Source of the DNA: Lyophyllum atratum
Lineage: Eukaryota > Basidiomycota > Agaricomycetes > Agaricales > Lyophyllaceae
Assembly (NCBI GenBank): GCA_014905825.1
Contig: JACGCN010000031.1
Coordinates: forward strand, 310,001 to 374,000
DNA: 64,000 nt
Direction: 5' to 3'
Part shown: positions 40,481-47,855 of the stretch, piece by piece
Position numbering within the stretch: the stretch's first letter is position 1
Layout of the letters: each line of letters opens with the position of its first letter
Notes under the pieces: generated by a model
Told to the model about the DNA's origin: nothing
The model's input: only the letters and a program-made list of their open reading frames with translations
Databases searched by the model: none
Program-made: the position numbers and the translations under genes

Positions 40481-41094
40481 TCATAGGCGCAGTAGCCCGA
40501 GCACAGTTATAAGTCTCTCCTCCAAGAATCTCATCTCTGGACCAATTTCTCGAAAGTGGATTCCCAATTCTCCGAGTATGACTTGGAATGCCTCAAAGCA
40601 TTGGGACTGTTGCTCTATGAGACGGACACCGTCGTCTTCCTGCCACTCGGTAACAGGCGCAAGCAACAGAAACGTCTCATTGCGATAGTTCTGGAGTGCA
40701 AGTTGGAAGTCTAGTGAGTTCACCAGAATATCTCGTCGTCTTTGCGCTTCTTCGTCACCGTTCGACGTCAACACGGCGTAGACAATGGGATCCACGGCTG
40801 ACCTGTCGCATATTTGTATAGGACACAATCGGCCTTCAGCCTCCTTCTTTAAATGTGCGACCATTATGGCTTGCTGCATCTCGAGTGAGCCCACGTCTTT
40901 CCGACTAGATCCTTGAGTCGCCATCACATCCCGAGCGATCTCTCTCACTACTGCAGGCCCTTCCAAAGAAAGTTTCTTGGCGAGTATATTTATAAGGGTG
41001 GTCTTCCCCGTCGACTACCAGCTCCACGTCAAGGCATAAACGCAACGGAGCGAGTAGAACTCACCGATGGCCCGACAAGATAGATTCTCTTCAT
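40481..41094 (-). CDS. Small P-loop ATPase, NadR/AAA_28-like
   Basis: Two exons: ATG at 41094 with Met-Lys-Arg-Ile-Tyr-Leu-Val-Gly-Pro-Ser, a short intron (GTGAGT...GGTAG), then an exon from about 41019 to the TGA at 40481-40483. Splicing rebuilds a Walker A motif Gly-Pro-Ser-Ser-Thr-Gly-Lys-Thr-Thr. Further features are Arg-Glu-Ile-Ala-Arg-Asp-Val and Ile-Cys-Asp-Arg-Ser-Ala-Val-Asp-Pro, where the Asp-Arg pair recalls the second motif of NadR-type nucleoside or NMN kinases and AAA_28 proteins. The length is about 187 residues. The substrate is unknown. It is divergent from, and only 143 bp away from, the RdRP-helicase gene. Confidence 0.75.
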
Positions 41095-41237: not shown

Positions 41238-44200
41238 ATGGTACCCCACGTTCTGCGCGATAATCCTTCCAAGGCCGATGACAACTGGCGGTTCACTGTT
41301 CCATCCGGGGTCTTGAAAGTCCCCTCGAACCGACCCAACCACGGGAAGCTCATCAGCTTCAGCAGTGACAAGATTACACTACAGATAACAAAGTTCCCTG
41401 AGAACAGAGTTCTACGCTCCGATGACCCCTCGAAGTTCATCCTTCTGTCCTTTGGAAATCTTCGATTCCCTGAATCCACTATCCGGGAAGGATCGGAGTA
41501 CATCATGCGTTTGTTTAAGGCTGGATTATTCTTAAACGGCGTCCAGTACCGATTCTATCATCATAGCAACAGTCAACTTGTAAGTATCGACCCTAACGAC
41601 ATAGTAAACCTGTTGATGTGTCTACCAGAGGGGGCGTTCCTGCTTCGTACGCGAGGCCAATTCGGATGCTGAACTAGATGCTCGAATTTACGCCTTGGGA
41701 GATTATGGGAAGATCATGAATATCGCGAAACGTGAGTCCGATCTGTTGTTTCCAGGGTGCTCGCCCTCTTATCAGCTTGACCAAGGTGCAAAACGGATAG
41801 GTCTACTGTTTTCAGAGGCCCAGCTTGACTGGCAACTGGATCCTGGCTTTACTACAGATATCCCGGATATTAGATCAGGAGATGAGATCTTCTCCGATGG
41901 ATGTGGACTCATGTCGCGACACTTTGCAGTACAGCTAAGTAGAGCAAGAAAGATCATTATCAGAGGTGCAAGATACACGCCTACAGTTTTTCAGATCCGG
42001 TAAGCCAACATTATATCACATTACTGTATGACTTTTGCTGACTCCGAAAAGATATCTGGGTTACAAGGGTGTCTTGATGTTGCATCCTGATCTCGACGTG
42101 CAAAAGAAGCACCTGGTGCAATTTCGAAAGAGTATGAGGAAATTCTCGACCACCGCGGATCTCACCTTCTCACTCGTCGGCTACTCAAAACCTTATACCT
42201 TCGGTCGCCTTAATAACGACGTCATTGTTCTTTTGTCGAGCCTTGGCATCACGAATGACAAAGTCCTGGCCAAGCAACAGGAGTATTTCGAGTGGATTAC
42301 CAATGCTTCGAAAGATCCAGTCAAGGCCGTCGATTTTCTGTTTGCCATTGGCGAAAACGAACTTGCTGAAAGAGTCCTTCTGGATGGCCTCGATCATCCA
42401 GCCGTATCCGCACAAATACGCCGACGCCAGTTATCGGAAACGGCCAGGTTCCGAAACGAGAAGGGTCGATCCAAAGCGCCCATCTTCATCGGGGACTCTC
42501 GACGATTATTCGGAGTGTGCGATCCCTACCAGGTACTTAAGGAGGGGGAAGTCCACATTCGCATAATGACTGCCCGCAAGGGGCCGTCCACTCCGATCCA
42601 TGGCGATGTTATAGTGGTGCGAAACCCTTGTCTTCATCCGGGTGAGCACTTCATTTTGCTGCTTGTGCGGAAGCCCAACTTATAGTGAGATAGGCGACTG
42701 CCTAAAATTACGTGCGGTGCATCATAACAAACTGGCGCATCTTGTGGATTGTATCGTGTTCGCATCCGTTGCGCGACCTGGGCATCATTCTGCTCCATCT
42801 ATGAGCAGTGGTGGAGACCTCGATGGTGAGTTATCCGGCGTGATGTATTCGCTGCAGACCATTGAAGCTGGTTTGTTCCAGGCGATGAATACTTTGTCTG
42901 CTGGGACAAAGATCTAGTACCTAGCAAAGTTGCGGAAGTGAGTTTTCAACTTTTTTTCTTATTCATTCATTCCTTGATATGTCGCCACAGTCATACGATT
43001 ATCCAGGAAACAAGGAGTTTACAAGCAAAAAGATTGAAAGATCAGATTTAGCGAACCATTTCGCGTCGTATAGTGGGTAAGCGTAACAAGATAACATCGT
43101 TTTTCTAGATCACAATTCTTACGATTTCTAGTGCTGGAGTGGCCAGAGTGTCATCCCTCCATGCCAAATGGGTCCGCGCCAGTCCATCGGGCGCTTTATC
43201 TGCGGAATGCCAAGAGCTCAACGCCCTGCACTCCCAATGCGTGGATGGCGCACGAATTAGGATTCCTGACCGCCTTACCAACCCGCCCGATCGGCCAGAT
43301 TTGGAGCCTTATATCCTGGACCTCTTGGAGGCAGACAGAACAAAATTTGCTGACGAATTCACTAAAGAGGTGTCTCTAAGGGAAGCGATGACATCCACGG
43401 ACATCAAAGAGGGGAAGGAACTCCTCGTCGCGCTTCTCCAGAGCCAGCAAAGTGCAGTATCCGAGTATGAGCTGTTTACCCTTGCGTGTCTTGTTGCGCG
43501 CAAGCACGACTTCGATGTCACGCCTTTCTTAAGCCATCTCGATGTGTCCGCTCTTAGCGCTCAAGAAAAACATGCGCTTAGTGCCACTTTGCGCTTGTCC
43601 CCCGAAAAGCATCCTTACGTCTGGAACTCCTTGATTCGTTCTGATATCCTGACGCCACGAGATCTGTTTCAGAGAGCCCTCAACCATCCTTTTTCTATGC
43701 AACGTCTGTATTCGTCCAAAGTCCATGGGCTCACGACGTTTTTTGAGTACCTCCAGATGGCGACGCAGGAGTACACTAGAAAGTTACTTATTCTCAAGGT
43801 GACTAATTACCGTTACACAACCAGGTTTTGCGTGAACTAATGTGTTCCTAGACCGAAGAACGATTCGCGATCGGAATTTTCATGAGAGGCGAAATACCAT
43901 GGGACGAGGATCCGGATGTGAACGAGAACGTTGTAGTCTGCTCTTTTATGCCGAATACGGCTTCCACCCTATCCGGGTATCGGCTTGCATGTTAGCGACA
44001 CTCACTTTCAGCTCTACAACAGACATATTGGCGACACATTCATCTTCCTCAACCGCGCGCCTCGCGCTTCTGATTCTGAAATTGCCGCAAGCATCGCATT
44101 GGGGAAGATTTCTGCCACTGTCCAAAGAGTACGAATGTCGTCTTTTCTACATACGCGTTTGTTGACTCTTTGTGCAGCAAATTGGCCGGATACGGAGCAC

Positions 44201-47139
44201 CCCTGTGATTGCTATCGAGCTTCACGTCGTCTCTAACCGTGATCGTGTAGCGCATCAGTTGTTCGATCTATGGTTCGAACAGTAGGTCCAAGCCCTTATT
44301 GGCTGACAAGTTCTGACCAACCTTTAGTGTCCCGACTGAAGAACTCCTTCCACGCTTTCAACGCCGCGCAACACCGTATCAGTTCAATGACCTCCGTGAC
44401 GTGGACTGGAAGGACCCAGAAAATCGGTTACTTCTGCCATCCTTCTTTCCCAAGGCGTCGAGCGTATTCCCGAGGGTGGATTCGCCATCGAATGCGGCAT
44501 TCGGGCCTCCGCCAGGATCAATCCCTGACGACCCCAAATACGAACATCACACGCAGGAGAGTATGAACGCCCATTTATCCAAAAAGGTCGCACCAGAGAT
44601 CAACAAGATCATGGAGTTTGCTCTCGAACATCACGCAGAAGAAGAAATGTTTCTCATCTTCAACTTCACTGTTGCTCAGACGCCTCTAGATTGCGCGACA
44701 GTGAAGAGATGGATGGAAATGTTCCCTCCACTAGCCTTTACCTTGCTCAAATCCTTCCCACCCAAGGAAGACGGATCTCTCGCCGAAGAAATTGCAGATA
44801 CCGCTCACGATATCTGCCGCAATATCATCCGATGCGCAAATTCTTTGGGAATTGCCGTCCTCGTGGCACTAGAGAAGATTTCGAGAGCCATTGCGACTAT
44901 GGATGTCGAGCAATATTTCGATCTCCTCACGTTGACAGCCCTTTCCGTTCGTTCGCGGCATCTTGTCCAAGAAATTCTTCTGGTCCTGAACGACTGTCGC
45001 ATAAACGCTGCAATTGGACCATTGTCACCATCCATGAAATATGGATGTAAATTTGCGCTTTCAATTGCTTTCGACCGAGCCGAGGAAGCCGCTGACGAGT
45101 GCCCATGTGACGACTCAGGAAAGCCAGGGAGGCAGAGGACGCCACCTACCCAAGCGAAACTCTCGTTCATCCCTGACGATCCTGCTCATATCCGCGCCGT
45201 GGTTCGGGTTGATGCTAGAACTGATGTTCGTTTGCATTCTCATGTTCGACTCCAAGCAACATCCAAGGCTACAAATCGATGGACTGAAGCACTTGTTCTT
45301 GACGGCCTTGTTGTCGTGGCAATGAAAGGAGAGCTCAAGATCAGCTTACTCCATCCGCCCCCACCTGAAATGGAACGCATGGACTGGAATATGTACAATG
45401 CAGGAATTATAGGTACGTGCGGCGGGATTGTTTCTACTGCGATGCAATATTCAATTCCCCATGGATTTCTAGCAACATCCAGAGCGATGATGGACGCAGT
45501 CTTACGCCTCTTGAAAGAAGGGGCGGCTTGCTGTAAATTCCACAAAATTATCACAGGCGAACTAGAGGAAAACGATGATCTCGGCGAAGAACCCGCTATT
45601 TCGAATTTGGGCCATTCGACAGCTTCTGCGCGACTTAATGAAAGTCAAGTCATGGCAGTGAATTCCTGTACAGCACCTCTGTCGCTGATTTGGGGGCCAC
45701 CTGGTATGTCACTATGATTTCTTCACCCCAGGCGTGTCTGATTCCGCGAAACTGTTAGGGACCGGAAAAACAACTGTCGTCGTTGACATCCTTCGAGATA
45801 TCATTAAGAAATCCTCTGGAGGAGATCTCCCCAAGATTCTGATGACAGCATCGACTCACAATGGTAAACCCGTTTCTAGCGAAATGTACTCTCAGATTGA
45901 CTGAATGAGTAGCGGTCGACAACGTGTTGGAGAGGTTTGTTGCCATCAACGGAAAGGAAGAGCTTCTTCCAGAACAGCAAATATTGCGGGTTGCGACCGA
46001 CCAATCGAAAGTCAACGAAGACCTCAAGCATTACACTGTCGATGCTAGGGTGGGTGGCGACACCAATGAAAACAATCGACTGGCGAAGAAGGCTCAGGAG
46101 AGGGTCAAGGCAGCCGTTCTGGTGTTCACCACTTGCGCTGGTTCGTATCCTGTACAATCATATAATGCTGATTCTAACTATCACTTCAAGGCGCCGGACT
46201 TGGAACTCTGCGGAAAGTCGACTTTGACATCGCGATTATAGACGAGGCATCCCAGATCACGGAGCCGGGTTCACTCATACCCCTTGTGAAAGGAATCAAG
46301 AGGGCTGTCCTTGTCGGAGACCAGTGAGTCCTGTATCAGCGGCAAGCAAGCTGGGAATTATTGACATGTCATACAGCGTACAACTACGTCCGACAGTAGG
46401 GAAGATGGGTGCCGTCTTGGAATTCGACATATCGCTGTTAGAGCGGCTCTACACTCACGTCGAGAAACCTCAAATGCGCAAGACCATGCTGGATGTACAA
46501 TATCGTTCGCCGAAGGAGCTCATGGCTTTCCCCTCCAAGGCCTTTTACGATGGCAAGCTGAAAACAGGCCTCCAGGACACTGTGAATATTCTCAGGATCC
46601 TCTCTTTCTCATCCTTCCCTTGGCCTCGTCGTGCTGGGGCGCTCATCCCTACCGTCTTCATTCAGTGCTCAGACGAGGAGGATACGGGTGGCATGTCGAA
46701 AAGGAATATCGGCCAGGTGGACCTCGTTGGGCACATCCTCCCAATGCTTACTACACCGGAAGGAGGAGATGTCACCGTGTCGCCTAACGACACGTCGTCT
46801 TTGGCTTCTTTGAAAATCACAGTTTTAACGCCATATAAGAAACAAATCCAAGCCCTGTGTGACAAACTTCCTTCTTCTGTTCCCTGCTCGACAGTCGACG
46901 CGTTTCAGGGTCGCGAAAGCGATATCATCATCTTCTCAACGGTTCGATGCAATACACAAGGAGATATTGGTTTCCTCGACGACAGGAGGAGGTTGAACGT
47001 CATGTGGACCCGCGCTCGTTTAGCGCTGATAATCATTGGTGATCGCCAGACCTTGGGCGCCAATCCACTCTGGAAGGAAGCGCTTGATTCATGTACAGAA
47101 GTCAAGGTAACTTTACCGGAAAGCAGCGATGTCAGTTGA
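41238..47139 (+). CDS. Cellular RNA-dependent RNA polymerase fused to UPF1/Hrr1-like SF1 helicase
   Basis: Fifteen exons (41238-41579, 41629-41731, 41786-41999, 42052-42641, 42694-42825, 42882-42937, 42991-43076, 43132-43798, 43852-44128, 44178-44281, 44328-45703, 45759-45863, 45913-46140, 46191-46323, 46377-47139) chain in phase to about 1724 residues. The first ~650 residues are a eukaryotic silencing-type RdRP: Ser-Asn-Ser-Gln-Leu, Ala-Lys-Arg-Ile-Gly-Leu-Leu-Phe-Ser, Asp-Gly-Cys-Gly-Leu-Met-Ser, Gly-Val-Cys-Asp, Arg-Asn-Pro-Cys-Leu-His-Pro-Gly-Asp and the catalytic Asp-Leu-Asp-Gly-Asp near 457-461. After a ~600-residue linker of unknown fold comes an SF1 helicase: Gly-Pro-Pro-Gly-Thr-Gly-Lys-Thr near 1315, Asp-Glu-Ala-Ser-Gln, Gly-Asp-His-Val-Gln-Leu-Arg-Pro and Asp-Ala-Phe-Gln-Gly-Arg-Glu. 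One extra base at 43984-43987 breaks the frame. This is either a real lesion or a sequence error. Confidence 0.8.
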
Positions 47140-47855
47140 GTCTCGAAATCTATTACTTGGTGTTCTCATGCGTACCGCGCATCTATCCTTGCAATCATGA
47201 GGCAAACAGCTCAGATCTGTTTCATGAGTGGGATAACATACTTACGAGGCGAGAAAAAGAATTGACTTTATGTAAAGTCTTCCTGGGACACAGGACTGCC
47301 TAGCTCATGAAGGAATCGGAGGATTTTATGCTCTTGACTGCCATCAGCGACTATCTTGATGGCCACCTGCCGCTGTTGTGAATCTTGCGCAAAGAAGACA
47401 GTTAACTGAAGAGGATAAGCACTGGAATAAGAGTTCGTATTGAACGGAGTCTCACTCCACGGCCACTGTAAGCTGCGAAAGGGGGCGTATATCGGTCGAC
47501 AGCTTCATATCGGTCGACAGCTTCATATCGGTCGACAGCTTCCTCTGAGGTTCCTCCAAAAATGGCGTACGGGAATTCGGAATTGCAAGGTTCATCGGGG
47601 GGAAGCAAAGGTTTTGAGGTGGCAGTGGGGTCTCCATCTTCGTCGAGCACTGAGGTGTACAGTGTATAACCGTGGCTCAAAAACCACTGATGCATAAAAT
47701 CCGAATAAATGATATCTTTCCGCATTTCGATGTCGGCATCATCGCGAAGAGCTTTGAACTCCTGCTGTATTTCTGACTATGGTTCATGAAAGACATTGAA
47801 CTACATTGAACGACATCAGAAAAAAATGAACGCTTACTTCGGTCAGTTCATCCAT
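47140..47855 (-). pseudogene. Kinase-like relic D (N-terminal part only)
   Basis: Fourth copy of the kinase family. Exon 1 is 47855-47838 (Met-Asp-Glu-Leu-Thr-Glu), followed by a 58-bp intron. Exon 2 starts at 47776 with the family's Gly-Tyr-Thr-Leu-Tyr-Thr motif. After another intron the frame gives Val-Ala-Ile-Lys, Leu-Arg-Phe-Leu-His-Glu, and then a stop in Glu-Asp-Phe-Thr (about 47275). A weak trace of the next segment (Val-Ile-Pro-Leu) may follow near 47230, but the catalytic loop and C-lobe are missing. Three in-frame copies of an 18-bp unit (47491-47544) add repeats of Glu-Ala-Val-Asp-Arg-Tyr. It is a truncated pseudogene lying directly 3' of, and convergent with, the RdRP-helicase gene. 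Confidence 0.7.
47491..47544. repeat. 18-bp minisatellite, three units
   Basis: ATCGGTCGACAGCTTCAT is repeated at 47491, 47509 and 47527 (the last unit with one change), inside exon 2 of kinase relic D and in frame. Confidence 0.9.

Follow-up and report, generated by a model that had tools for sequence, protein, structure and literature searches.

A gene of the FgRdRp5 type in Lyophyllum atratum joins an RNA-dependent RNA polymerase (RdRP) to a UPF1-like superfamily 1 (SF1) helicase through a conserved linker of about 700 residues, making it a new member of a little-studied, unusually widely conserved family. Protein comparisons across two fungal phyla indicate that this RdRP-helicase fusion family is real and widely conserved. 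We put at about 80% the probability that the family is old and that its chains of about 1,700 residues, in each of which a cellular RdRP is linked by a conserved bridge to a UPF1-like SF1B helicase, couple template handling to double-stranded RNA (dsRNA) synthesis for small RNAs. The architecture was already described for one genus, Fusarium. A first-pass annotation of the window, the whole 64,000-nucleotide stretch of DNA that was analyzed, had observed both sets of motifs in one gene and interpreted them as a fusion. Its observation was partly confirmed, holding in outline, and its interpretation was partly supported.

Joining the two halves requires 17 exons rather than the fifteen first proposed. 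The splice model, built by dynamic programming with some introns placed by hand, encodes 1678 residues and gives the following features.

41238..47139, + strand: conceptual 17-exon model of an FgRdRp5-type gene that fuses RdRP, linker, and SF1 helicase, 1678 aa
41397..43273, + strand: RdRP domain PF05183, residues 54-555, 8 exons (Pfam)
42816-42825/42882-42886, + strand: RdRP catalytic DLDGD, residue 458, split by intron 42826-42881
43301..44281, + strand: linker part 1, residues about 565-830, the RdRP end and a conserved alpha/beta module (HMM, P0274 model)
43977..44022, + strand: lesion region, 20 nt fewer than the partner haplotype, with in-frame TAG 43993-43995
44554..45099, + strand: linker part 2a, predicted helical array, model residues 76-257 (AlphaFold)
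45136..45411, + strand: predicted 1B-type beta-barrel of the SF1B helicase, model residues 270-361 (barrel matches; P0274 whole-helicase match)
45694-45703/45759-45772, + strand: Walker A GPPGTGKT, split by intron 45704-45758
46191..47139, + strand: helicase motifs II-VI, AAA_11/AAA_12 (Pfam and motif reading)
46241-46255, + strand: DEASQ
46316-46323/46377-46392, + strand: GDHVQLRP
46897-46917, + strand: DAFQGRE
40482..41014, - strand: neighbor outside the system, a divergent AAA_28 (PF13521) P-loop open frame with its upstream edge ~220 nt from the fusion ATG

Motif reading recovered every RdRP and SF1 motif named in the first-pass annotation on the plus strand and in the order given, along with RRLNVMWTRAR within 46191..47139 (+). 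The catalytic DLDGD, expected near residue 460, lies at residue 458, and the Walker A GTGKT, expected near 1315, starts at residue 1270. On the single conceptual chain, PF05183 scores 337 bits (cut-off 23.8), AAA_12 148 bits, and AAA_11 144 bits, and the NCBI protein at the locus (P0001) is likewise one chain, of 1689 aa and 99% identical to the model. With PF05183 over its cut-off and DLDGD present, the first half reads as a cellular RdRP; the nearest solved chains are RDRs (180 bits), to whose first 340-450 residues the family RdRP has no counterpart. The second half has the Walker A and B motifs, motifs III, V, and VI, and the stalk and 1B barrel of a UPF1-like SF1B helicase, the fold being taken from orthologue P0274 and window exon 12. 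An RdRP followed by an SF1 helicase in one gene is the FgRdRp5 arrangement, although the simplest frame of the window haplotype is broken between the two, and the homology is collinear through the linker (aligned via P0005 and by HMMs). Downstream of the gene, at 47489-47542, an 18-nt unit occurs three times in tandem without a mismatch, within an open minus-strand frame.

The frame-matched joining of the halves claimed at first pass survives as a possible one-chain model, but one join is weak and TAG 43993-43995 stands in the plain frame. Barring an extra splice, the RdRP-side frame runs into this TAG and yields a 777-residue product. The frame could be rescued by a splice at 43933-44011, with a weak donor, or by the 46-nt splice implied by P0001; both are predicted only and amount to conceptual routes round a gap. 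The assembly (64.8 Mb in 151 contigs) appears to hold two haplotypes, with the window on contig C77 and its counterpart on C130 (L009). This partner has 20 more nt in the linker, and a single frame is open in it across window 43852-44128. Of 120 listed relatives, 104 have the bridge stretch that the window copy lacks, filling 12 or more of its 18 alignment columns; the 16 models missing it include P0001, P0003 (Tricholomella), and P0004 (L. shimeji). The simpler reading, which we favor over a small intron in some species, is that 20 nt were deleted from the window copy. Since the bridge residues are missing from the near relatives P0003 and P0004 as well, a splice there may be real in some species.

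The partner haplotype has two frameshifting gaps of its own: an RdRP exon lacks 5 nt (42550-42554), and a helicase exon lacks 4 nt (46048-46051). P0003-P0005 retain the residues at both sites. Judged from sequence, the window copy is probably damaged, and unless the assembly is wrong, both haplotypes seem broken, at different places. These three gaps, the stop at 43993, and the retention of the affected residues by relatives give a little under an even chance that the locus in this strain is a decaying pseudogene pair, the window haplotype encoding at most the 777-residue polymerase-only protein. Tempering that view, differences between the haplotypes are mostly synonymous (75 synonymous and 29 nonsynonymous, with dN/dS about 0.12 when gap-touching codons are left out), P0003 and P0004 allow that the splice may be real, P0001 restores the frame on paper, and the gaps may be assembly errors. 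Mostly synonymous differences are also what would be expected if the damage were recent; by part, synonymous to nonsynonymous counts are 34:8 in the RdRP, 21:8 in the linker, and 20:13 in the helicase. As both haplotypes look damaged, activity in this L. atratum strain is doubtful. The natural fusion proposed at first pass holds for the family, which widely carries both halves and the linker, but the window copy is not cleanly open.

Two protein lists bear on the breadth of the family: a mushroom-side search that found 217 proteins and listed 120 of them, and a mould-side list, obtained with a query carrying a Fusarium helicase piece, of 120 listed proteins, 119 of them new. Coverage reaches at least half of every one of the four segments (RdRP, linker 1, linker 2, and helicase) in 94 of the 120 listed mushroom-side proteins and 104 of the 119 listed new mould-side proteins. 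One-chain models thus prevail, the fusion is conserved in other Agaricomycetes in the protein lists checked, and orthologues that are always two genes, named at first pass as the contrary outcome, were not what we found. Less than half of the helicase is covered in 26/120 listed mushroom-side models and less than half of the RdRP in 15/119 listed mould-side models, and because of these models short of one half, some species may make separate products. To judge by their names, mushroom-side members belong to the orders Agaricales, Boletales, Polyporales, Russulales, Hymenochaetales, Auriculariales, Sebacinales, and Cantharellales; named members on the mould side represent the classes Sordariomycetes, Leotiomycetes, Dothideomycetes, Eurotiomycetes, Lecanoromycetes, and Pezizomycetes. 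FgRdRp5 itself (FGSG_09076, here P0257, 1721 aa) is in the mould-side list, and P0005, 69% identical to the window model, aligns with it nearly end to end (35% identity over 1802 columns).

HMMs were built from the window model and from 19 mushroom-side and 15 mould-side members that are among those counted. In an out-of-phylum test, the mushroom-side HMMs scored all 15 mould-side members (RdRP 494-587, helicase 409-491, linker 1 140-187, and linker 2 76-161 bits), and the mould-side HMMs scored all 19 mushroom-side members alike. The best scores on other loci sampled in the genome were 113 or 136 for the RdRP, 206 or 225 for the helicase, and 6 for the linkers, all lower bounds because they are sums over exon pieces. 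Linker part 1 stayed under 5 bits on the 20 sampled loci, 8 other RdRP and 12 other SF1 loci of which some may be haplotype copies. Among long proteins with both motifs readable, the median distance from DxDGD to Walker A is 822 residues on the mushroom side (n=65) and 829 on the mould side (n=97). Long members keep DLDGD in 89/92 and 98/101 cases, respectively, and the Walker A lysine in 77/92 and 101/101.

Named members among the listed proteins are Agaricomycetes and filamentous ascomycetes, a distribution that could suggest separate origins of the fusion in Ascomycota and Basidiomycota, or its horizontal passage between them. We consider this very unlikely, since the linker is common to both groups and occurs in none of the 20 other RdRP/SF1 loci sampled in the genome, and since mushrooms and moulds separate in the trees of all three segments, where late transfer should nest one group. 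Support for the split after rerooting is 0.957 in the RdRP tree, 0.388 in the linker tree, and 0.663 in the helicase tree, high for the RdRP only, and strongly supported conflicts within the two groups number 9, 5, and 3 in the three pairings of segment trees. A family-like helicase filed under the willow Salix suchowensis (P0185) is probably fungal contamination of a plant assembly. Extra Pfam domains in the single predicted chains P0315, P0345, and P0076 (transporter, short-chain dehydrogenase, and alcohol dehydrogenase) probably reflect neighboring genes run together by prediction.

Many incomplete models break at one place. If intron 45704-45758 is left unspliced, translation reads GPPGMSL and then stops; 12 of the 26 helicase-short models, or 12 of the 120 listed on the mushroom side (P0059, P0072, P0073, P0077, P0078, P0084, P0086, P0087, P0093, P0104, P0107, and P0108), end 1-49 residues past WGPPG, inside Walker A, and these end points coincide with the intron dividing the motif between GPPG and TGKT in L. 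atratum. They look like intron retention in gene models; the remaining helicase-short models stop further along the helicase or ahead of it. Four species have RdRP and helicase models on equally long contigs (Tephrocybe 22309, with consecutive locus tags; Mycena alexandri 186683; Psilocybe cubensis 3132992; and Serpula lacrymans 3547952). The helicase neighbors P0128, P0133, and P0135 start after Walker A, and P0122 contains it, its RdRP partner stopping earlier. Boundaries in Walker A imply that most split products are not whole genes. Despite these pairs and the 26 models with RdRP, linker, and under half of a helicase, the least probable explanation of all is that an RdRP gene and an adjacent UPF1-like helicase gene were joined in error by gene prediction, given those boundaries, a linker conserved across phyla, and a near-constant active-site spacing.

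The linker had been put at first pass at about 600 residues of unknown fold; it is longer, and its end is, according to structural models, the helicase's own stalk and 1B barrel. Linker part 1 is alpha/beta in the P0274 model. The AlphaFold check proposed at first pass, run on a 361-residue linker piece, gave a mean pLDDT of 92.2 and a helical array (residues 76-257) followed by a 1B-type barrel. This barrel (residues 270-361) matches those of SETX, Sen1, and UPF1, with F1/V-type ATPase barrels scoring equally, and the whole-helicase fold match of P0274 backs the 1B assignment. Among solved structures, UPF1/NAM7, which has no RdRP, is the helicase's nearest match in both sequence and fold; IGHMBP2 equals it in fold, and ZNFX1 is a weaker match. 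The genome also holds two ZNFX1-like helicase loci ~11 kb apart on contig C13 (L016, whose pieces score 224 bits to ZNFX1, and L017, alike).

We rejected the fused gene as the genome's UPF1 orthologue. A separate UPF1 locus (L015) scores 276 bits over 180 residues against human UPF1, and the zinc-binding CH domain, a UPF1 hallmark, is absent from the Pfam hits of six family proteins.

The first-pass annotation knew of no characterization of this architecture, but PMC4515635 printed the RdRP-helicase-AAA arrangement of FgRdRp5 (FGSG_09076) in 2015, and a deletion phenotype followed in 2024. PMC11237814 describes an RdRP, a DEXDc domain at 1277-1478, and an AAA domain at 1475-1677, a roughly tenfold rise in expression during sporulation and the sexual stages, and a drop in ascospore discharge to 47.6% of the wild-type level in the deletion mutant. 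It reports a role in ex-siRNA accumulation and sexual development for this F. graminearum member, whose function in the biogenesis and accumulation of ex-siRNAs is partly shared by Fgrdrp1 and Fgrdrp2; the authors leave open the contribution of the helicase domain, and the deletion phenotype covers both halves together. In the sections available, PMC6764512 tabulates FgRdRp5 in antiviral defense, citing others, and both it and PMC4870495 name FgRdRp5 with no mention of a helicase. In PMC11130915, a figure legend on the domains of F. fujikuroi RNAi proteins includes an AAA box but does not name the protein that carries it. An RdRP-SF1 helicase fusion is not described in the accessible text of PMC9610886, PMC4290597, PMC7763443, or PMC5563155. 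Within literature available in part, we found the architecture for Fusarium only, and we do not claim its absence from print for mushrooms; our literature search found no enzyme assay of any family member. FgRdRp5 resembles the mushroom-side member in having an RdRP, a DEAD-like helicase, and AAA (PF13087) collinear in one chain. It differs in being an ascomycete protein whose helicase the papers call DEAD-like, whereas both L. atratum haplotypes have frame-breaking gaps.

Silencing also needs an RdRP and a helicase in the Schizosaccharomyces pombe RDRC (Rdp1, Hrr1, and Cid12) and in the Neurospora SAD-1/SAD-3 system, but there the two are separate proteins. Physically, RDRC is associated with a nucleotidyltransferase of the Cid12 type and with an Argonaute complex. 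Hrr1 and SAD-3 are named as helicases for RNA silencing in PMC11237814 and PMC7763443. Helicase and RdRP also share one chain in Dictyostelium, oomycetes, Hydra, and Nematostella (PMC3661229 and PMC4791657), but those fusions have an N-terminal DEAD-box helicase, in contrast to the C-terminal UPF1-like SF1 helicase of the L. atratum type.

In this conserved architecture, most long members keep their catalytic motifs, and the active sites lie at near-constant spacing. Under the coupling model that we prefer, the helicase half would load on single-stranded or aberrant transcripts, move 5' to 3', strip proteins and structure, and carry the polymerase towards the 3' end, where it would start the complementary strand. 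Dicer would then process the resulting dsRNA to small RNAs, chiefly during sexual development, a step based on the Fusarium work; the polarity, the handling of templates, and a matching role in mushrooms are presumed. UPF1-type helicases move 5' to 3', and an RdRP travels along its template 3' to 5'. Because the two are opposite in direction on one template, the helicase more likely clears the RNA and delivers the polymerase to the 3' end than runs ahead during copying. We regard as unlikely a further reading, in which mushrooms and filamentous moulds have a one-chain surveillance and copying machine with the Walker A intron as a switch. Here, the UPF1-like translocase would scan transcripts 5' to 3' and hand its own RdRP to the 3' end, making aberrant-RNA recognition and double-strand synthesis a single act, and intron retention would produce a polymerase-only protein ending after WGPPG, as in the 12 listed models.

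How silencing RdRPs choose and prepare their templates is an open question. The FgRdRp5-type architecture is common in mushroom and mould protein lists, and a fusion that two fungal phyla retain with its spacing almost unchanged is strong evidence that a UPF1-like helicase and the RdRP act on the same RNA. The fusion also provides one polypeptide whose two activities can be switched off singly.
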